From assembly GCA_001664505.1 (NCBI GenBank), contig CP011806.1:1703528-1767527 (forward strand): a stretch of DNA of 64,000 nucleotides, in the 5' to 3' direction. The position numbers were made by a program, and so were the translations under genes. This document shows, piece after piece, positions 3,964 to 58,428 of the stretch. The stretch's first letter is position 1. Each line of letters starts with the position of its first letter. This stretch comes from Acidobacteria bacterium Mor1 (GTDB lineage: Bacteria; Acidobacteriota; Polarisedimenticolia; Polarisedimenticolales; Polarisedimenticolaceae). The notes beneath the pieces were generated by a model, which saw nothing but the letters and a program-made list of their open reading frames with translations, searched no databases and was not told the DNA's origin.

Positions 3964-5937
3964 TCAGCGAGCTTCCTCGGTCAACGTCGTCTCCGGCAGC
4001 ACCATGCCCGCCAACTCCGAGAGCGACGGGAAGGCCCAGAGAATGCCTTCGTCGGAGCTATCTCGTTCGATCACCGGGTGGACCACAACGACCAGTTCGA
4101 TCACGTCGTCCTGCTCGCTGAACCCCTCGAAGAGATAACCTAGGCCCGGGACACTGCGCAGACCAGGAGTCGAGGTAGAGCTCACCGAGGCGGTCACCGA
4201 ACCCAGTCCCGCCAGCAACATCGCCTGGCCGTCCTTCAGCCGGGCGCTGGTGCGCAGGGAGCGGGTCTCGAAGGCGGTGCTCGCCTGGGAGCTGCCGGTG
4301 GTGTCGCTCAGCACCGACGTCAGCGTCGGATCGGGAAAACTGATCTGGGGTTGAAGGTCCAGGGTGATTCGATCGTCGGAACCGACCAGCGGCCGCACCG
4401 CCAACTGCACGCCGAAGGGCCTGAAATCGACCGCCTCGAACACACCGGAGTCGGCGTTCCCGAAGGCGGGAGCGAAAGAAGTCGGGATCGGCACCTCACC
4501 ACCCACCTGGAACTGCGCGATCTCTCCCGACAACACCTTGAGAGTCGGCGCCGATACGGTGCGGGCCAGCCCCCGGGTCTCCAGCAGCGAAAGCAGGCTG
4601 TCGAAGGCGAAGCCACCGGCGACGAACTGGGCCTGGCCTCGCAGGCCGCCGGCGATCGATTCCAGCACACCCTGAATATCGTCCTGGCCGGTCGAGAGCC
4701 CGGAGTCCTGAATCCGGTCGGACCCTACCGGGGTCCGAAGCGGCGGCTGATCCTGGTCGGCCATGGCGGCGACCAGGTCCGGCGTGAAGTTCAGCAGCCG
4801 GGTCCGGTTGATCTCGTAGAAGCGCACGTTGACCCGCACCTGAGGCACGTCCGCCACGTGGATCACCGAGAGGATCCGGCCACTGGCAACCTCGAGCATC
4901 GTCCCGCGGGCGATGTTGGACTGAATGTTGTTGTTCAGGTTGATGATGCCGCCGCCACCGCCGAGGCCGCCGCCTCCGAGGCCGCCGCCACCACCTCCTC
5001 CTCCTCCTCCTCCGCCGCCGCCGGCGCCGCCCCCCTGGCCGCCGTTCTGGCCGCGGCCGGAAATGAGGGAGCCCCCTTCGTTGGCCACGACGCGAATGTC
5101 CGAGCGATCGATGCTCTGACCGAGGAACAGGCGCGATGCGAGGGTCAGCACCCGCACAAGGGCGACCTGGTCCTGAACCTCCCCGTGAAGCACCAGCACA
5201 TCTTCGGTGTCGTCCGGCAGGTTGCCGCGCTGGATCCGCGAGACCTCGATGTCATCCGCCCCCATCAACTCGGCGGCGGCACGAATGCGGTCCTCGATGC
5301 GGGCCGGGAGCGTATCCAACCGGATCAGGTTGATCACCTGGCCGGCGCCGCCGGCACCCTCCTGGACACGCAGATCGTCACCAGGCTCCTGCGTCTCCTG
5401 GGGTGTGCTCGGATCCGGATCCCCCGCGGCGCGCACCAGCGGAATCGAACCCCGGGAGCGCCCGCGGGATCCCGCCGACAGATACGAACGGGCCGTAGCT
5501 TCCGCCGCCTGGGAATAGCTGGTATCGGGAACGTTGCCCCGCAGCACCAGGGCGTCCCGGTCGGGCGCCGACTCCACCCGGATATCCGGGTGGATATCGT
5601 TGAGCGCTTGCTCGAGCAGGGAGAGATCCCGCTCGACCGCGAGGCGCTGCCGCACGGTGGTCCCGTCGACGAACCAGATGATCAGCGATGTGCGCCCGGC
5701 CTGCCGCCCGAGCGCGAGCAGCTCACGGCTACTGATCAACTGCACGTCGGCGATCTCACCGTCGCCGACGGCCAGCCGCAGGATGTCCTTGCCGTAGGTA
5801 AGGCGGCGATGGTGCGCCACCTGCAGGGACACCTCGGCCCAGGCCACCGACGCCACCAGCATGAGCCACAGCGGGACCAGCACTCTGAGCCGGCGCAACG
5901 AGGTGAGAAATCCGGATGTAGACGACGGTCGGTTCAT
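3964..5937 (-). CDS. cpaC: Type II/IV secretin, Flp pilus outer-membrane channel (CpaC/RcpA)
   Basis: This 657-residue protein has a signal peptide (hydrophobic run VLVPLWLMLVASVAWA), then a pilus/BON-type N-terminal region (LTYGKDILRLAVGDGEIADV), N-domain repeats and the C-terminal secretin barrel (VSAPTLKVLSGEIAQFQVGG; LRSVPGLGYLF). It forms the outer-membrane gate for the Flp pilus. The ATG at 5937 overlaps the TPR gene's stop as ATGA, pointing to coupled translation. A Gly run of about 30 residues (roughly 299-330) interrupts the protein before the barrel. In many tad loci cpaC lies beside cpaB; here it comes last among the structural genes. Confidence 0.93.
   Translation of the reverse strand: MNRPSSTSGFLTSLRRLRVLVPLWLMLVASVAWAEVSLQVAHHRRLTYGKDILRLAVGDGEIADVQLISSRELLALGRQAGRTSLIIWFVDGTTVRQRLAVERDLSLLEQALNDIHPDIRVESAPDRDALVLRGNVPDTSYSQAAEATARSYLSAGSRGRSRGSIPLVRAAGDPDPSTPQETQEPGDDLRVQEGAGGAGQVINLIRLDTLPARIEDRIRAAAELMGADDIEVSRIQRGNLPDDTEDVLVLHGEVQDQVALVRVLTLASRLFLGQSIDRSDIRVVANEGGSLISGRGQNGGQGGGAGGGGGGGGGGGGGGLGGGGLGGGGGIINLNNNIQSNIARGTMLEVASGRILSVIHVADVPQVRVNVRFYEINRTRLLNFTPDLVAAMADQDQPPLRTPVGSDRIQDSGLSTGQDDIQGVLESIAGGLRGQAQFVAGGFAFDSLLSLLETRGLARTVSAPTLKVLSGEIAQFQVGGEVPIPTSFAPAFGNADSGVFEAVDFRPFGVQLAVRPLVGSDDRITLDLQPQISFPDPTLTSVLSDTTGSSQASTAFETRSLRTSARLKDGQAMLLAGLGSVTASVSSTSTPGLRSVPGLGYLFEGFSEQDDVIELVVVVHPVIERDSSDEGILWAFPSLSELAGMVLPETTLTEEAR
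4948..5040. repeat. GCC/CTC trinucleotide tract encoding a polyglycine linker
   Basis: On the plus strand the tract consists of GCC, CCA and CTC triplets. On the minus strand it encodes an almost pure Gly run with a few Leu residues inside the secretin. Such tracts expand and contract by slippage, so its length may vary between strains or be misassembled. Confidence 0.85.
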
Positions 5938-23528: not shown

Positions 23529-26075
23529 ATGAGATACTTCGTCTCGACCGTCTGCGCCTTGGCCCTGAGCGTGGTTCTCTCCGGAGACCTGAGCGCCCAG
23601 GTGACCCGCCAGTGGACCCACGTTGAATCGAGCCGGTTCGGCCCGGCGGCCATCGACGGCAGCGGTGCGACGATCTACGTCTCCGACTCGGCCGACGCGT
23701 TCGGGACAAACCCGGAACGGGCCTGGCAGCTCGTATCGTGGGACGGCTCGACCGGCGCAGGCTCCCAGTTGAGCAGCTTCGGCGACGGCGTCTCACCCTT
23801 TGGCCGGGTCTCGGTCAGCGATGACGGGCAAAAGCTGGCATTCCTCTCGGCGTCGGACCTGACCGGGCAGAACCGGGACCAGAGCGTCGAGGTGTTCCTG
23901 ATGAACTCCGACGGCACCGGAATCGTTCAAGTCACCGACAACCCGGCGGGCTCGGATCCGATCGACGACGCCATCCTCTCCGGGTCCGGCAATCGGGTGC
24001 TGTTCCGTTCGGCGATCGACCCCCTCGGCACCAACCCGGGGCGGGGCCGCCAGATGTTCATCATCGACGTCGACGGCACCAACCTACAGCAACTCACCTC
24101 GGCGCCCTCCCTGTTCCTCGGCGGCGGCATGTCGATCAGCGACGACGGCTCCCGCATCGTGTTCCACGACACCAACGATCTGACCGGCCAGAACGCCGAC
24201 CGGAGTTTCGAGATCTTCACGGTGCTGGCCGACGGGACCGGCCTCCGGCAGTTGACCACCGACGGCGGCACCGAAGGCCACCTTAGCGGTAACGGCTCCC
24301 GAATCGCCTTCGCCAGCGAGTTCGACTACACCGGTGGCAACCCTGACGAATCGAACCAGGTGTTCCTCGTCGACTGGGACGGAAGCAACCTGACCCAGGC
24401 GACGCTGCAGGACTCCTGGGCCGAACTACCCCGGCTGACCGACGACGGATCGGTCCTGTTCTACCTGGATACGCTGGTCGACCCCGTCGAGAACCCCGAC
24501 GGATTCCGTGAAGTCTGGCGGGTCAACGCCGACGGCAGTGCGCGTAGCACTCTGACCGACCACTCCACCTTCTACGGCATCGACGATCTGGCCGTTGCCG
24601 GAGACGGGAGCCGCGTGGTCTACCGTCAGTTCGGAGCCGATATCTCCTTCGGCAACAACCCCGACGGTGGGTTCGAACTGGTGATCCGCGACGGAAACGG
24701 CGCGAACCCGCGACAGCTGACCGACAACCCGATCCACCCGCTGTCGATATTCCCGCCCACCCTTTCCAGCGACGGCAGCCGCCTGAGCTACGTTCAGACC
24801 TACGACGTCGTCCGCGTCGACGAAGGCCAGGCCCCGGTGACGCTGGTGACCCTGACCGACGCCCTCGCCGACCGTTCCTCGATGACCGGCGACGGCCAGA
24901 CGATCGTGTTCGAGACCCAATCCAACATCCTGGGAACCAACCCGGAACAGGACCACATCCTGCTCGCGGTGGACGCCGACGGCTCCAACCTGCGCCAGGT
25001 GCTTCCGGAGCCGCTGTCCTCGGGCGGGGTGTGCGGAGATCAGACGCCTGCGGTGGCGCGCGACGGCAGCTGGATGGTGTTTCAGTCCTGCCACGTCTAC
25101 ACCGGGGATTTCCGGGAGTTCGGCGCCGAGCTCTACGTCGCGCGCCTCGACGGCAGCGGTATCCAGGTGATCACCGATGACAACGACAGCCAGTTCAAGT
25201 TCCCACGTATTTCAGGAGACGGCTCCTGGGTCGTGTTCAGCAACGGGAGCGGGATGTATCGCGTCCGGAACGACAGCACCGGACTGCAGCTGATCGACGC
25301 CCTGGGGAGCAGTCCCGACATCGACGGCGACGGAAGCCATATCGTCTACAGTTCGCGGGCCGACCCGCTGGGCACCAACGCCGACGAGAACTTCGAGATC
25401 TTCCTGTTCCAGCCGCCGGGACTGATCACACAGCTCACCGACACCACCGTGGTCGCCAACTCGATCCCGACCATCAGCGAGGACGCCGCCTACGTCTACT
25501 GGAGTTCGGACGCTCCGTTCTTCGGGGCAACCAGCGGGACCGATCTCTACCGGCTCGAGTTGGCCGGCGGGACGATCGAGCGTGTCGGAGCGCTGCGCCG
25601 GGCGCCTTCGAGCTACAAGGCGGCCTTCCCCGGCGGGCTCTCGCTGACGTCCGACGGCCGTGCGGCAGCGTTCACCAGTGCCGGCAACTGGATCGACGAC
25701 AACGCGGACCATTCCACCGAGGTCTACGTCAGCGATTTCGGAGCCGTTGCCTCCATCAGCGTCGGGCAAGCCTCCCCCACCCTGGTCAGCTGGGACGCCG
25801 ATCCCCGCTGGCGGACCTACGACGTCATTCGTGGAGATGTCGCCGAGCTGCAGGCCGGGGCCGGAGACACGGTGGAACTGGGAGCCGTGACCTGTATCGA
25901 GGACGACTCGGCGGATCTCGACACGGTGGGCTCGGAAGACCCGGACGATCCGGTCCCCGGGCAGGTGTTCTTCTACCTGCGCCGTGGATCCCCGGGTCCC
26001 GCCGGACCCGTCGGCGACTACGGCCAGGGCAGCGGAAGTAAGGAGCGCCTCCCGCTCTCCGGAGATTGCCTCTGA
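23529..26075 (+). CDS. Exported PD40/TolB-like beta-propeller protein with shared C-terminal module
   Basis: The 848-residue protein has a signal peptide (STVCALALSVVLSGDLSAQV). About ten propeller-blade repeats follow, each with a variant of DLTGQNADRSFEIF followed by an ADGTGLRQLT-type strand, as in PD40/TolB-like repeats. This suggests two fused propellers (residues 30-730). The last 110 residues differ: a WDADPRWRTYDVIRGDV segment, an internal Cys, FFYL and a Cys next to the C-terminal residue. That end matches the two LVIVD proteins of this window. It is probably cell-surface or periplasmic; ligand unknown. I placed the start at 23529, where the signal peptide begins after a G-rich ribosome site. 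Confidence 0.8.
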   Translation: MRYFVSTVCALALSVVLSGDLSAQVTRQWTHVESSRFGPAAIDGSGATIYVSDSADAFGTNPERAWQLVSWDGSTGAGSQLSSFGDGVSPFGRVSVSDDGQKLAFLSASDLTGQNRDQSVEVFLMNSDGTGIVQVTDNPAGSDPIDDAILSGSGNRVLFRSAIDPLGTNPGRGRQMFIIDVDGTNLQQLTSAPSLFLGGGMSISDDGSRIVFHDTNDLTGQNADRSFEIFTVLADGTGLRQLTTDGGTEGHLSGNGSRIAFASEFDYTGGNPDESNQVFLVDWDGSNLTQATLQDSWAELPRLTDDGSVLFYLDTLVDPVENPDGFREVWRVNADGSARSTLTDHSTFYGIDDLAVAGDGSRVVYRQFGADISFGNNPDGGFELVIRDGNGANPRQLTDNPIHPLSIFPPTLSSDGSRLSYVQTYDVVRVDEGQAPVTLVTLTDALADRSSMTGDGQTIVFETQSNILGTNPEQDHILLAVDADGSNLRQVLPEPLSSGGVCGDQTPAVARDGSWMVFQSCHVYTGDFREFGAELYVARLDGSGIQVITDDNDSQFKFPRISGDGSWVVFSNGSGMYRVRNDSTGLQLIDALGSSPDIDGDGSHIVYSSRADPLGTNADENFEIFLFQPPGLITQLTDTTVVANSIPTISEDAAYVYWSSDAPFFGATSGTDLYRLELAGGTIERVGALRRAPSSYKAAFPGGLSLTSDGRAAAFTSAGNWIDDNADHSTEVYVSDFGAVASISVGQASPTLVSWDADPRWRTYDVIRGDVAELQAGAGDTVELGAVTCIEDDSADLDTVGSEDPDDPVPGQVFFYLRRGSPGPAGPVGDYGQGSGSKERLPLSGDCL

Positions 26076-28848: not shown

Positions 28849-31800
28849 ATGCTCAAGGGTTCCGGGACCGGCGCGGTCCGTCTGAATCGTTGCTATCACG
28901 TCATAATTGCACTGCTCGTCGCCGCCGTATCGCTTCCGGCCATGGCGGCGCCCGACTGCTACCAGGGGATCAACACGCTGACCCTCGAACCGGGGCAGAC
29001 GATTCATCTGGGCGACCGGGAAATCCACGCCCGGGCCGAACGCACCACCATGTTGAACGACGACGACGACGTGATCCCTGCAGTGGCCGTCGACCTGCTG
29101 ATCCGTTGGCGGGACACCCGGCAGCACAAGAGCCGGGTCGGCACCTACCTGCCCCACCTGGCCGTCGAGTACGACGCGACCTGGCAGAGCGGCAGCTCCG
29201 AGTCCGGCGACCTGCAGTTCCGGTTGACCAACGACGGCCCGGGATACGGTAAAGACCTCGTCATTCCCGAGACCGCTTTCGACCAGGACAGCCTGCGGCT
29301 CTCGTTCCGCATCTCGAAATGGGCCAGCAACGCCGGCAACGCGGAGACCGAAGACAGCTGCCCGCTGCCGACGACTCTGGGCATGGAGATGGTGCTCGGC
29401 GAGCTGAACCAGGCCCCGGCGATCGACTACGGGACCAGCCTTGGCGAGGTGGACGAAGATCCGCTGCGCATGCGCCTGGTGGGTAGCCTCGACCCGCGCG
29501 CTCCCGACAACTACAACGACATCTGGGGCTGGAACAACGGCACCACCTTCCTCGCCATCCTCGGTGGCGTGAACGGCACGTCGTTCGTCGACATCACCGA
29601 TCCGACCAACCCGGTGGAAGTCGCCTACTTCTCCGGCGTCAACAGCTCCTGGCGCGACATGAAGGCCTTCGGCAACTTCGCCTACGTCGGCTCCGAAGGG
29701 GGTAGCAGCGGCATCCGGGTGTTCGACCTGAGCGACCCGCTGAACCCGGTGCTGGTCCAGACCTACACCGGCGGCATCTCGACCTCGCACAACGTGGCCC
29801 TCAACGAGGACCTCGGTCATCTGTACGTGGTCGGCGCCAACAACGGCACCCGCATCCTCGACGTCGCCACCGACGGTGCCAACCCGGTGGAACTGGCCGA
29901 TTGGCAGGTCCGCTACGTCCACGACGCCTACATCACCGGCAACACCGCCTACTTCTCCGAGATCAACAACGGCGTGCAGGAGATTCTCGACTCCACCGAT
30001 CTGAACAACCTGCAGCAGCTCAAGATCTGGTCGACTCCGCTGAACTTCACCCACAACGTCTGGGCCAACGACGACCAGAGCGTCTGCGTGACCACCGATG
30101 AGACCACCAGCTCGCCGGTCGCCGCCTACGACATCTCCGACCTCTCGGCACCCGGCGATCCGCCGCTGCTGTCGGCGTTCCAGCCGAACGCCTCGACGAT
30201 TCCGCACAACGCCTACTTCGACGACGCGCCGTTCAACACCCGCGTCGCCGTGTCCCACTACGGAATCGGTCTGCAGTACTTCGACCTGACCGACCCGCGC
30301 AACCCGGTGACTCTGGGTAGCTACGACACCCTGCCGTCGGGCGACACCGGCACCGCCGGCGCCTGGGGCTGTTACCCCTACGACCCCCGCGGCTACATCC
30401 TGATCAGCGACATCTCTACCGGTCTCTACATCTTCGAGTACGAGCCCACCGGCGGCGTGTTGACCGGCTCGGTCACCGACGGCGGCAGCGGCAACCCGGT
30501 CGAGAACGCCCGGATCGTCGTGCTTGCCGACGGCCAGGAGACCTTCTCCAACGACGCCGGCGGCTTCGGCCTCTACGCGCCGGAAGGCCCGGTGCAGCTG
30601 CGGATCAGTGCTCCGGGTTACAGCACCGCGCTGATTTCCGGCGAGGACATGCTGCTCGACGGCAGCGTCCAGGTCGACGCTCAGCTGGTGCGCCTGCCCA
30701 CCGGGCCCCTCGACGGTGTCGTACGCCGGGCGGACAACCAGAACCCCATCGCCGGCGCCACCGTCGAGATCCCGGCGCTGAACCTCTCGTTGACCACCGC
30801 TGCCGACGGCACCTTCACCATCGGTGACGTGGCGGTCGGCGGCTACGTGCTGACCGCCAGCGCCTTCGGCTTCTCGCCGGAGGAAACCCGCATCCTGCAA
30901 ACCACCGGCGGCACCAGCGGCATCGTGCTCGAACTCGGTGCGGCCTTCCTGGCCGACGATGCCGAGACCGACCAGGGTTGGTCCCAGGGCGTCGGTGGCG
31001 ACACGGCGAACACCGGTATCTGGGAACGGGGCGACCCGATCGGCAAGAGCGGCGGCAACGTCCAGCCGGAGGACGACGCGACTCCGGCCCCCGGCGTCCA
31101 GTGCTTCGTCACCGGCAACACCGGCGGCGGCAACGACACCGACGACGTCGACGGCGGCGTGACCACCCTGCTCTCCCCCAGCTTCTCCCTGGCCGGCGTC
31201 GATGCCGCCCAGATCGAGTTCGCCCGCTTCGTCTCCACCGACGGCGGCTTCTTCGGCGGCGGCGGTACCTTCCGCGCCCAGGTCTCCGACAACAACGGCG
31301 GTAGCTGGATTCCGCTGGAGCAGATCTCCGACGACGAAAACCAGTGGACCCGGGTCCGCTTCGACCTCGGTGCCTTCACCAGCTTCACCAACACCATGCA
31401 GATCCGCTTCCAGGCCCAGAGCACCGGCTCCAGCAACTTCAGCGTGCTCGAGGCCGCGGTCGACGACATCCAGATCACCCGGGCCTGCACCCCGGCGTTC
31501 AACCAGAACGCCAACGACAGCGACGCCGACAACCTGGTCGACGCCTGCGACCTTTGCCCGGCCGACCCGGACAACGACATCGACGGTGACGGCCTGTGCG
31601 GCAACGTCGACAACTCCCCCTTCGACGCCAACGCCGACCAGATCGACACCGACCTGGACCAGATCGGCGACGCCTCGGACAACTGCGTGGCCGACGCCAA
31701 CCCGGCCCAGCGCGACCTGGACGGTGACGGCATCGGCGACGCCTGCGATGACGACATCGACGGCGACTCGGTGCTCAACGGCACCGACACCGACGACGAC

Positions 31801-32193
31801 AACGACGGCGTGGACAACGCCTCGGACAACTGCCCGACGGTGCCCAACGACACCCAGCAGGACGAGGACCTGGACAACATCGGCAACGCCTGCGACGACG
31901 ACGACGCTCTGGTACAGGGTGTGATCGTCGACGGCAACCAGATCCGCTGGGAGCCGGAAGCCGACGCCGACAGCTACAACGTCTACCGCGGCGACCTGGG
32001 CACTCCGGCGCTGCTGCCGCTGGCGGATTGCTTCGCCAACGGCCTGACCACCCGCTACGTCAACGACCTCGATATCCCGACCCGGGGCGACGGCTTCTTC
32101 TACCTCGTCTCGCGGGATGCCGGCGGCACCGAAGGGTCGCTGGGCGATCAGTCCAACGGCGCCCTGCGCGTCGTGAACAACGCCTGTCCGTAA
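28849..32193 (+). CDS. Secreted LVIVD/choice-of-anchor-B protein with thrombospondin type 3 repeats
   Basis: This 1114-residue exported protein has a signal peptide (HVIIALLVAAVSLPAMAA), then a domain at 40-190 whose pattern (GTYLPHLAVEY; TNDGPGYGKDL) recalls the P19/Tp34 fold. LVIVD repeats follow at 200-540 (SFVDITDPTNPVEVAYF; IRVFDLSDPLNPVLVQTY). Two carboxypeptidase-regulatory-like domains lie at 535-695, a jelly-roll-like domain at 700-880, calcium-binding type 3 repeats at 885-1020 (DIDGDGLCGNVDNSPFDANA) and a C-terminal module with SYNVYRGDL and a final Cys-Pro. It is probably displayed on the surface; ligand unknown. ATG has AAGGGGGG upstream. It follows the kinase/lyase fusion and precedes the duplicated-domain gene by 14 bases. 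Confidence 0.85.
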   Translation: MLKGSGTGAVRLNRCYHVIIALLVAAVSLPAMAAPDCYQGINTLTLEPGQTIHLGDREIHARAERTTMLNDDDDVIPAVAVDLLIRWRDTRQHKSRVGTYLPHLAVEYDATWQSGSSESGDLQFRLTNDGPGYGKDLVIPETAFDQDSLRLSFRISKWASNAGNAETEDSCPLPTTLGMEMVLGELNQAPAIDYGTSLGEVDEDPLRMRLVGSLDPRAPDNYNDIWGWNNGTTFLAILGGVNGTSFVDITDPTNPVEVAYFSGVNSSWRDMKAFGNFAYVGSEGGSSGIRVFDLSDPLNPVLVQTYTGGISTSHNVALNEDLGHLYVVGANNGTRILDVATDGANPVELADWQVRYVHDAYITGNTAYFSEINNGVQEILDSTDLNNLQQLKIWSTPLNFTHNVWANDDQSVCVTTDETTSSPVAAYDISDLSAPGDPPLLSAFQPNASTIPHNAYFDDAPFNTRVAVSHYGIGLQYFDLTDPRNPVTLGSYDTLPSGDTGTAGAWGCYPYDPRGYILISDISTGLYIFEYEPTGGVLTGSVTDGGSGNPVENARIVVLADGQETFSNDAGGFGLYAPEGPVQLRISAPGYSTALISGEDMLLDGSVQVDAQLVRLPTGPLDGVVRRADNQNPIAGATVEIPALNLSLTTAADGTFTIGDVAVGGYVLTASAFGFSPEETRILQTTGGTSGIVLELGAAFLADDAETDQGWSQGVGGDTANTGIWERGDPIGKSGGNVQPEDDATPAPGVQCFVTGNTGGGNDTDDVDGGVTTLLSPSFSLAGVDAAQIEFARFVSTDGGFFGGGGTFRAQVSDNNGGSWIPLEQISDDENQWTRVRFDLGAFTSFTNTMQIRFQAQSTGSSNFSVLEAAVDDIQITRACTPAFNQNANDSDADNLVDACDLCPADPDNDIDGDGLCGNVDNSPFDANADQIDTDLDQIGDASDNCVADANPAQRDLDGDGIGDACDDDIDGDSVLNGTDTDDDNDGVDNASDNCPTVPNDTQQDEDLDNIGNACDDDDALVQGVIVDGNQIRWEPEADADSYNVYRGDLGTPALLPLADCFANGLTTRYVNDLDIPTRGDGFFYLVSRDAGGTEGSLGDQSNGALRVVNNACP

Positions 32194-54870: not shown

Positions 54871-57800
54871 CTAGGGGCAAACGCCGTTGACCGTGCGTTC
54901 GTTGCCGCCGCTGTCCGGGCCGAGACCGCCCTCGAAGTCGCTCTCGACCTCGATCTCGTTGATCACCTCGGTCTTGAGCCCGACGGCGCTCACCAGATAG
55001 AACAGCACCTCGTCCTCGACGAACCCGGGACGCGCGGCGTCGTAGAGATCGGTGGTCGCGAGCTCCGAGGCAAAGCAGGAAGGCGGCGTGTAGAAGCTGT
55101 CGGTGGCAAACCGCTTGGACAGCAGTGCTCCGCGGTAGACGTTGTAGGTCTGCACCGGGTAGAGCTGCAGCATCATGTCCACGGTCTCGGGCACGTCGGA
55201 CTCGGCCAGCCAGCGCAGCCGCTCGCCGCCGGGGCGGCCCAGCACCACGATGCCGTCGTCGAGATCGCAGGCGTCCCCTTCGCCGTCGCCGTCGCCGTCG
55301 GCCTGGGTGCCGTTGGCCCGGTCGGGGCAGTTGTCGGTGAGGTCGTCGACGCCGTCTCCGTCCCGATCGGCATCGGCGGCGTTGTCCAGTCCGTCGCCGT
55401 CTATGTCAGCATCGCAGGCGTCGCCCTCGCCGTCACCGTCGGCGTCGAACTGGGTGACGTTGGCGATCGCCGGGCAGTTGTCCCCGGCATCGCCGATGCC
55501 GTCGCCGTCGCCGTCGGCCTGGTCCGCGTTGGCCGCTCGCGGCGCGTTGTCCACGTCGCCGCAAACACCGTCATCGTCGGCATCGTCGGCCGGGTCCAGC
55601 GGGCAGGCATCGCACACATCGGCGATCCCGTCTCCATCCGAATCACCCGATGCGGTGTTGTTGGCGGCGCGGCAGGCCGGCCCGCCTCCGACGCCGTCAC
55701 CCAGGTAGACCTCGACCTCGTCGACGGCGCACTCGAGCACCCTCAGTTCCGGAGAACTCGAGGGAGAATCCGCGACGAAGCGCAGTTGGATATCTCCGTT
55801 GCCCGACCCCGGATCGGAGAGGTCGACAACAGATCCGAGATCGAAGCTCACCCGGTTCCAGGCCGCGGCCTCGTCGGTGATTGATTCGAGGACCGTCCAG
55901 GTGGTTCCTCCGTCATTGGAGACTTCGGCCTGGCAGGTACCGCCGGCGAACAGCCCCGCCTGATTGGAGGCCCAACGGCGGAAGCTCACCGAAACGGTCT
56001 GTTGCGGCCGGGAGACCAGCGTCGGCGACTCGAGCGCGGTGAAGCCCTCGTCGACGTCGTCGTCCTCGATGATGTTCGGTTGCGCGGGGTCATTCCCGGT
56101 CACGAAAGCACTGCCGCTTCCAGACGCGTCGACACCCGGCTGAATGGTCCCCTCGAAGTCTTCTGGACCGGTGCCGTTAGGCACGCCGTGCTCCCAGAAA
56201 CCGTCGGTAGCCGTGTCGACCATGGCATCGACGGTCCAACCGCCGTCGCCGCCGTCGAAGTCTTCAGCCGAAGCGGCCGGGTCCAGTTCGAGGAACACCT
56301 GTGTCGATACGGACAGATCGAGTCGGCGCTGGCCGAGGGCGAAACCGAAGCGCTCCGCCATGAGCAGCTGCCGGCCGACCGGAGCACCGGCCAGGGTGAA
56401 ATCACCGTTGGCGTCGGTCACCGCGGAGATCGTTCCACCCTGGAGGCTCACCGTCGCACCGTCGACGCCGGTACCGTTGGCCGCGTCGCAGCCTCCCGTC
56501 CCCGCCTCGCAGATGCGTCCGCTGAGGGTCACCCGGTCGAGAGGCTCGAGGGCGACGTCGAAGTCGAGCCGGCCTCCCAGGGGCATGCTGCCGGCATCGA
56601 CCACCGTGGGGCGGTAACCCCAGGCCGAGACCCGCATGCGCACCGGGCCCTCAGGCGCGTAGATGCCGTAGGTCCCTTCGTCCCGCAGATCGCCGTGGAT
56701 CGCGTCGGCGATGGAGAACGCCTCACTGCCGTCTTCCAGCAGGATCCGCGCACCGGCGATCCCGCAGTTGCCGCTGCAACCGGCCTCCCGGACGAAGCCC
56801 GAGAGGGTGCCGCCGGTGGGGTTGTAGCGAGCCACGCTCAAACCGGAAACCGAGTCGACCAGGTAGACCTGATTGACCGGGTCGCCGTTTTCATCGCGCA
56901 CGAAGGGATAGACACCGACGGCTCCCAGGAAGCCGTCGTCCCCGGAAGGGAAGGTGTCGATGGCCGCCAATACCACCGGCGCCTGGGGCCGATGGAAGTC
57001 GACCAGGAAGAAGCCCAGGCCGTAGTGGGCGATCCAGACGTTGTCGTCGTCGTCGACCACGACGTTGTTGACCGACGCTTCGGGGTTCGGCTGGAAACGC
57101 CCGATCAGCTCCGGAGCCATCGGGTCGGTAGCGATGTCGTAGACGGCGACGAATCCACCGTCGCTCTGATCGCTGGTGTACAGCCGGGTGCGGTCGGCGT
57201 TGGGCCACGCGTTGTTGGTTGCATCCCCCGGGGTCGTCGTCTGGGAGCGCATCACCGCATCGATCGTGTCCAACTCGGGAGGCGTGCCCGGCACGACCAT
57301 CCGGTCGGCGACCTCGAGCTGGCCATCGTTGACCTGGGAGAGAAACACCAGGGCGGGATCGACGAACACATCGTGGGCGAACCGGTCGGTGGTCACGCCG
57401 GTCACGTCGCAGGGCATCGCCGGACCGCATGGCGGATCGGTCGATTCCGCCAGGCTGAGTACCCGGGTGCCGGTGTCCGCGCCCGCGACCCACAGTTCCA
57501 GTGTCGTCGGATCCAGGAACAGGTTCTGCCCCCGGTTCAGGGTCGCGTTGAAATCAGGCTCGGTCGTGGGGAACAGCGGCACGGCCATGTTGACCACCTG
57601 CACGCCGACGTTCCCGCTTCCGCCCCCGATGATGTACAGGAAACCACCCTGGTCGCCGAGCTCCAGCGACTTGACGTCACGGGAGGAGTTGAAGGGGCCG
57701 GTGAAATCCTGGATCTCATCGGGCAGGGCCGGATCGGTGACGTTGATCAGGAGCGCGCCCGAGGAATAGGTCACCAACGCCAGGTCGGTCCGCTCCATTT

Positions 57801-58428
57801 CTTCGCTGGACGTATCGACGCCGGAGAAGCCCCAGGCGTCGATGTAGCGGAAGCCGGCGCGGGGGTTGAGGACGCCGACGATCTCCAGGCGATCGGCGGG
57901 AACCGTCGAGGCGCTGACTGCCTGAGGCTGCGGCGGCGCCGTGGGCAACTCACTCGGCTCGAGGGTCACGTCGAGGCTCAGGCCGGCGGCGCGAGTCGAG
58001 CTCCCCTCGAGCCCCCCTTCGAGCACCAGCTCGAGGGACACCGGTCCACCGGAGCCGGGCCAGGGCAGGTCGGCACCGTAGGCCGGGCCCCGGGGCGACA
58101 TGCGAAAATCGAACGACCCTTCCTGCACCGCCCCGGTGCCGTCGACCATACGGTAACGAACGTCGAGGTACGGGACGTAGGAGCCGGACCGAGGAGTCCG
58201 GGCGATCGGGTCGAGCTTGCGTGCCAGCAGGTCGATGGACAGGCCGTCGACCTCGCCACCCGGCCCCGGGAGGACACGATGCCCCGCAGGCAGGCGCTGG
58301 GCGGTCACCTGGTAGACGTTGCCTTCCAGGTTGAGCCGTTCTCCGAGTTCCAACCGGTAGTGGGTCGAGGGAGCCGCGGCGCCCAGACACAGCAGACTAA
58401 CGGCGATCAGCCATCCGAATCGCTTCAT
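54871..58428 (-). CDS. Secreted LVIVD protein with thrombospondin type 3 repeats, second paralogue
   Basis: The 1185-residue protein has a signal peptide (FGWLIAVSLLCLGAAAP), the same P19-like N-domain as its paralogue (GSYVPYLDVRYRM; PRGPAYGADL), an LVIVD region (about 195-535), regulatory-like domains (540-700), a jelly-roll-like domain (715-900) and calcium-binding type 3 repeats (920-1055, many DGDGDGEGDACD units). The C-terminal module has TYNVYRGAL, LFYLVSAVG and a final Cys-Pro. ATG at 58428 is chosen because the signal peptide starts there. It lies directly after the antiquitin-type dehydrogenase gene on the same strand. Confidence 0.85.
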   Translation of the reverse strand: MKRFGWLIAVSLLCLGAAAPSTHYRLELGERLNLEGNVYQVTAQRLPAGHRVLPGPGGEVDGLSIDLLARKLDPIARTPRSGSYVPYLDVRYRMVDGTGAVQEGSFDFRMSPRGPAYGADLPWPGSGGPVSLELVLEGGLEGSSTRAAGLSLDVTLEPSELPTAPPQPQAVSASTVPADRLEIVGVLNPRAGFRYIDAWGFSGVDTSSEEMERTDLALVTYSSGALLINVTDPALPDEIQDFTGPFNSSRDVKSLELGDQGGFLYIIGGGSGNVGVQVVNMAVPLFPTTEPDFNATLNRGQNLFLDPTTLELWVAGADTGTRVLSLAESTDPPCGPAMPCDVTGVTTDRFAHDVFVDPALVFLSQVNDGQLEVADRMVVPGTPPELDTIDAVMRSQTTTPGDATNNAWPNADRTRLYTSDQSDGGFVAVYDIATDPMAPELIGRFQPNPEASVNNVVVDDDDNVWIAHYGLGFFLVDFHRPQAPVVLAAIDTFPSGDDGFLGAVGVYPFVRDENGDPVNQVYLVDSVSGLSVARYNPTGGTLSGFVREAGCSGNCGIAGARILLEDGSEAFSIADAIHGDLRDEGTYGIYAPEGPVRMRVSAWGYRPTVVDAGSMPLGGRLDFDVALEPLDRVTLSGRICEAGTGGCDAANGTGVDGATVSLQGGTISAVTDANGDFTLAGAPVGRQLLMAERFGFALGQRRLDLSVSTQVFLELDPAASAEDFDGGDGGWTVDAMVDTATDGFWEHGVPNGTGPEDFEGTIQPGVDASGSGSAFVTGNDPAQPNIIEDDDVDEGFTALESPTLVSRPQQTVSVSFRRWASNQAGLFAGGTCQAEVSNDGGTTWTVLESITDEAAAWNRVSFDLGSVVDLSDPGSGNGDIQLRFVADSPSSSPELRVLECAVDEVEVYLGDGVGGGPACRAANNTASGDSDGDGIADVCDACPLDPADDADDDGVCGDVDNAPRAANADQADGDGDGIGDAGDNCPAIANVTQFDADGDGEGDACDADIDGDGLDNAADADRDGDGVDDLTDNCPDRANGTQADGDGDGEGDACDLDDGIVVLGRPGGERLRWLAESDVPETVDMMLQLYPVQTYNVYRGALLSKRFATDSFYTPPSCFASELATTDLYDAARPGFVEDEVLFYLVSAVGLKTEVINEIEVESDFEGGLGPDSGGNERTVNGVCP

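Follow-up and report, generated by a model that had tools for sequence, protein, structure and literature searches.

Three genes in the window (the whole 64,000-nucleotide stretch of DNA that was analysed) encode proteins that are otherwise of different construction and that end in a common module. The gene for a PD40 propeller protein lies on the plus strand at 23529..26075, with a start, judged from sequence, at MRYFVSTVCALALSVVLSGDLSAQ that resembles a signal peptide, and its C-terminal module is encoded at 25749..26075 on the same strand (108 aa and the stop). LVIVD protein 1, also on the plus strand (28849..32193), comprises choice_anch_B, CarboxypepD_reg, and TSP_3 domains followed by the module at 31900..32193 (plus strand; 97 aa and the stop). 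LVIVD protein 2 lies on the minus strand at 54871..58428, its start likewise being judged from sequence at MKRFGWLIAVSLLCLGAAAP and likewise resembling a signal peptide, and it contains a weak choice_anch_B match that falls under the cut-off, CarboxypepD_reg, TSP_3, and the module. The original prediction placed this last module at 54871..55260, and those limits are exact: read on the minus strand, they encode the last 129 residues and the stop of LVIVD protein 2, with the corresponding match of the genome profile at 1758401-1758757. In an alignment of the three window modules (97-129 residues), 18 columns are invariant, and these cover W, Y.V.RG, one internal Cys, F-Y-L, G..G, R, and the Cys near the terminus, among others. 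The three protein ends represent one real domain, far beyond chance. One module is thus common to the three ends, as had been proposed, and the layout first described for it stands with respect to W, Y.V.RG, and the internal and near-terminal Cys but not with respect to F[FY]YL, since LVIVD protein 2 has LFYL. The parts in front are indeed unrelated between the PD40 protein (a PD40 propeller) and the LVIVD proteins (choice-of-anchor B, CarboxypepD_reg, and TSP_3); LVIVD proteins 1 and 2 are related to each other.

With an E limit of 10, a profile built from the three window modules matched 129 genomic places; a refined profile of 30 rows, for which 150 of 262 candidates were scored, matched at least 148 places at an E limit of 1. 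Using the refined profile, at least 143 copies, most of them with E below 1e-6, were identified in 142 ORFs of the 5.985 Mb genome, and the set analysed below consists of 143 places taken with flanking DNA. The search of the complete genome that had been proposed as a check therefore recovered considerably more than a few further members. Among relatives, the module was detected in 31 of 31 genomes (the genome itself and 30 others), with 6-143 copies in each. In a wider sample of the phylum, 44 of 198 genomes were positive, among them 22 of 22 from the same class; positive genomes outside the class mostly had few or weak matches, with two having about 20. Additionally, a Rokuibacteriota MAG contained six copies. 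Four genomes that were picked up solely via ordinary fibronectin type III (Fn3)-like sequences had zero modules, indicating that the profile is not simply responding to Fn3. With every sampled genome of the class positive and few elsewhere, the module is, as far as profile matches can tell, lineage-specific. Two modules of the genome (G000), at positions 4503464 (L165; 878-aa ORF) and 5706607 (L192; 783-aa ORF), are identical across the whole matched stretch, an identity that points to recent duplication or domain transfer.

Comparison of 30 module copies with Pfam and NCBIfam returned no significant match; the NCBIfam sorting-domain models did not match at E up to 10, nor did Pfam fn3 (PF00041) even at E 10. 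Further, none of the 20 places at which Pfam fn3 matches the genome overlaps any of the 143 modules. Most of the Pfam fn3 content of the genome resides in a single 2935-aa ORF with ten ordinary fn3 repeats (G000 3056575-3061773; L197). A search of the literature found no paper on this domain.

AlphaFold2 models were generated for the modules of LVIVD protein 1 and of the PD40 protein, in that order, with only window and genome contig sequences as input, and had pLDDT values of 77 and 78. The closest structures to the LVIVD protein 1 model were Fn3 domains, among them those of CtXyl5A (5g56; Z 8.4, with 76 residues aligned at 2.1 A), 3mpc (Z 7.8), and titin, the Fn3-fold match spanning residues 1-81 of the module, and the PD40 model matched Fn3 structures at up to Z 6.3 (CtXyl5A, Z 6.0). 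Foldseek E-values were weak on their own (best 0.012); independently of the fold match, the sequence profile of the module showed weak homology to the solved Fn3-like 3mpc (E 0.0015, positions 4-73). Profile-profile comparison did not connect the module significantly to the tandem fn3 repeats of the genome (probability 0.95 on a scale of 0-100, E 0.057), and the Fn3 homology therefore rests on 3mpc and on the fold. According to the models, the module has a fibronectin-III-like, two-sheet, seven-stranded fold. It shares with Fn3 (PF00041; 3mpc, 5g56) the core pattern of W, Y.V.R, and F/Y-L-V strands, with the canonical strands up to the F strand represented by W, Y.V.RG, and P..G..FFYLV, but differs in its closing segment, G..G..S.G..R, in its conserved Cys-Cys pair, and in being single and terminal rather than tandem. 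The last 20-25 positions (G..G..S.G..R and the Cys, corresponding to the closing G strand) were modelled with low confidence and lie largely outside the structural matches. Identity with ordinary Pfam fn3 was ruled out at the level of sequence by the lack of any score and was accepted for the fold alone. The module is a real, abundant, and unannotated terminal domain of about 85-130 residues that is derived from Fn3 and has a closing segment of its own, G..G..S.G..R....C.

The distance from the end of the module to the stop was at most 12 residues in 94 copies, 13-40 residues in 28, 41-150 residues in 9, and greater in 12 (n = 143). That is, 122 of the 143 modules end within 40 residues of the stop, where random placement expects 10.2. 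Among relatives, 49 of 62 modules were C-terminal; for another 9, the available locus ended too early for the placement to be assessed. A single module was present in 141 of the 142 ORFs and two modules in only one; tandem modules were seen on one related contig (L220). The remaining copies, about 15 percent, are not C-terminal: eight begin 33-60 residues after the predicted start of a signal peptide so that the mature protein has the module as its first domain, and about thirteen more lie elsewhere. Carriers with the module next to the signal peptide include those of loci L194, L102, L106, L117, and L191 (G000 positions 5843922, 5850163, 1664704, 1875456, 2319453, and 5693919); those at 5843922, 5850163, and 1664704 have one common kind of C-terminal domain at their end, and in those at 1875456 and 2319453 the remainder resembles a YD-repeat protein. 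The idea that the module is always C-terminal on signal-peptide proteins thus holds for the large majority, nearly all of which are exported, but not for this minority. Copies directly after the signal peptide indicate a domain rather than an obligatory C-terminal tag and, together with the internal copies, rule out a tag of that kind that is cleaved. The original prediction was also to be abandoned if the profile matched an established Fn3-like domain found equally at internal positions; the fold did prove to be Fn3-like, but Pfam fn3 gave no score and the module is not equally internal.

Starts resembling signal peptides were recognized, by a simple home-made rule, in 128 of 138 carriers versus 126 of 758 other long control ORFs, and most of the ten remaining carriers show a signal peptide by eye. 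In 65 C-terminal carriers, the front part has Pfam matches, which together span 68 families, including TSP_3, MopE, sortilin-like, FG-GAP, Kelch, BNR, PD40, spondin, MauG, and subtilase. The description of the module as belonging to exported proteins with unrelated fronts, made from three proteins, therefore applies across the genome. The name of the choice-of-anchor families reflects the differing sorting signals found behind one shared domain, and in other bacteria it is MYXO-CTERM or PEP-CTERM tags that follow choice-of-anchor domains. Here, 9 of the 9 choice_anch_Q places of the genome fall within module ORFs, with the nearest module following 28-322 bases downstream. Of two choice_anch_B places in the genome, one is without a module, and a query with choice-of-anchor B found no relative. 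Multi-repeat FG-GAP ORFs carry the module in 8 of 11 cases and lack it in 3. Because the module occupies the slot where choice-of-anchor proteins elsewhere carry sorting signals, it is reasonable to read it as a secretion or surface tag, and this suggestion of the original prediction appears plausible.

The main rival to a role in export or display is that the module is an inert or adhesive cap, an accessory domain that contributes to adhesion or stability and takes no part in sorting. Such a disulfide-locked, Fn3-like cap could protect protein ends or bind polysaccharide or neighbouring proteins, and would have spread among exported proteins by domain shuffling. Fn3 domains often serve as spacers or ligand-binding domains, and those of bacterial extracellular enzymes commonly have roles of the adhesion or stability type. 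The Fn3 fold, the existence of N-terminal and internal copies, and a copy number that varies from 6 to 143 among relatives, as that of a shuffled accessory domain might, are all consistent with a cap, which we regard as a serious possibility, if on the doubtful side. It accounts less readily for a module that is single and strongly terminal, unlike the tandem ordinary fn3 of the genome (10 in one ORF), that is present on every choice_anch_Q protein (9 of 9), and that keeps a single conserved closing motif behind fronts of 68 families.

The near-terminal Cys had been proposed to form a disulfide or serve as an anchor. In 90 of the 123 C-terminal modules a single residue follows this Cys, and 72 end in CP; this could be taken to favour an anchor that is lipidated, as has been proposed for the Cys of MYXO-CTERM, or that forms an intermolecular disulfide with a surface partner. 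Against this, the internal and terminal Cys occur together: both are present in 130 of the 143 copies, neither in 10, only the terminal Cys in 3, and only the internal Cys in 0 (Fisher p 4e-13, to be taken as indicative given that paralogues are not independent). This co-occurrence indicates an internal disulfide between the internal and the terminal Cys. A third Cys follows FFYLV in 52 copies, and an upstream Cys is found within 60 residues in 52 of 52 three-Cys modules versus 24 of 41 two-Cys modules, making it the likely partner for the extra Cys; the front part has an odd number of Cys in 37 of the 52 three-Cys copies. Moreover, the near-terminal Cys is kept in internal and N-terminal copies, and the module is not followed by a membrane helix or an Arg cluster, in agreement with the original observation that these elements of known sorting signals are missing. 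Disulfides appear to account for most of the cysteines, and a terminal Cys left free as an anchor is unlikely; a lipid or disulfide anchor was rejected as a candidate on the basis of the co-occurrence with the internal Cys and the upstream partner for the third, and we consider it highly improbable. A subfamily of about 20 copies has four Cys, with the extra ones located before a Y.VYEG-type strand and near the end, which takes the form ...C.......CP; these copies probably form two disulfides (loci L091, L093, L109, L124, L126, L139, L142, L143, L145, L161, L165, L175, L177, L182, L192, and L196).

The module can also be compared with established sorting systems. MYXO-CTERM and PEP-CTERM tags resemble it in being carried by dozens of unrelated exported proteins per genome and, in the case of MYXO-CTERM, in having an invariant Cys (PMC11980579). 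Unlike these tags, the module is a folded domain of about 95 residues that has neither membrane helix nor Arg cluster, in a genome that has no exosortase. Membership in the PEP-CTERM/exosortase system was excluded because no helix or Arg cluster follows the module and exosortase PF09721 is absent from the genome (one control genome was positive), and membership in MYXO-CTERM, where the Cys motif precedes a membrane helix and an Arg-rich end, because in 104 of 123 C-terminal modules just 1-2 residues follow the final Cys. The search for a dedicated processing enzyme, which covered exosortase, found none in the genome. The export signal of type IX secretion is a C-terminal seven-stranded beta sandwich (PMC4804311), and the type IX C-terminal domain, as known from RgpB, resembles the module in that, within one genome, many Sec-exported proteins that are otherwise unrelated end in such a sandwich (PMC4804311). 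That the module is such a domain in an unexpected phylum nevertheless has next to no likelihood, given that 30 copies matched no NCBIfam sorting-domain model, that SprA was without a match in the genome (in a search lacking a positive control), that the papers identified describe the system as one of Bacteroidota, and that the module differs in its Cys pair and in its ability to occur N-terminally.

A further precedent is provided by PelI and Pel3, in which the signal for type II secretion is loop 3 of an Fn3 domain (PMC7949064). As with the module, a domain of Fn3 fold is located at one end of a secreted protein; in the account given there, however, that domain is N-terminal and belongs to one enzyme group, and the disulfides are in the catalytic domain and linker rather than forming an Fn3 staple (PMC7949064). 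The two are linked by fold only. This precedent fits better than the type IX domain because the C-terminus is not needed and because secretion follows periplasmic disulfide formation.

The interpretation we favour, to which we give about an even chance, is that this lineage-specific, disulfide-stapled, Fn3-derived domain is a handle for the outer-membrane export or surface display of Sec-exported proteins. The module is added a single time to a protein, in nearly all cases at the C-terminus and in some immediately behind the signal peptide, and a Cys-Cys bond would tie its closing segment to the middle of the sandwich. Following export by Sec, it would fold and form its disulfide in the periplasm, and the folded module would then be recognised by an outer-membrane route, possibly a type II-like GspE/GspF/secretin machinery, or by a surface receptor. 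Unrelated propellers, proteases, and repeat proteins would thereby either be delivered to the cell surface or stay attached to it. We infer that the module is an export or display determinant, and which machinery would read it. It is distributed in the manner of sorting domains, being single, terminal, carried by all kinds of exported proteins, and placed in the anchor slot. Counting against an export role, the eight modules behind a signal peptide and the about thirteen others at non-C-terminal positions mean that the C-terminus is not required. GspE-, GspF-, and secretin-like genes are located at 483-494 kb of the genome, with scores under the curated equivalog cut-offs; four secretin-like genes are encoded in total, and the better-matched gene set is that of a type IV pilus as compared with the type II-like set. 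Within the window, a secretin domain is encoded on the minus strand at 4051-4875 in a 689-aa ORF (type II GspD model, E 3.8e-34, under the cut-off).

A broader version of the favoured interpretation, that Acidobacteriota across the class use an Fn3-like, disulfide-locked domain as a general and movable signal for outer-membrane export or display, is tentative and in our estimation rather unlikely. If true, it would represent a kind of sorting domain that lies outside the family libraries and serves more than 100 unrelated proteins in some genomes. More than 140 proteins of one genome carry a domain that is missing from Pfam and NCBIfam, leaving the ends of more than 100 exported proteins unannotated in bacteria that are widespread in sediment and soil. 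With the module profile, a large part of the proteins exported by Ca. Polarisedimenticolia can be marked, and the module offers one testable handle on how proteins are placed on or beyond the outer membrane in uncultured Acidobacteriota.
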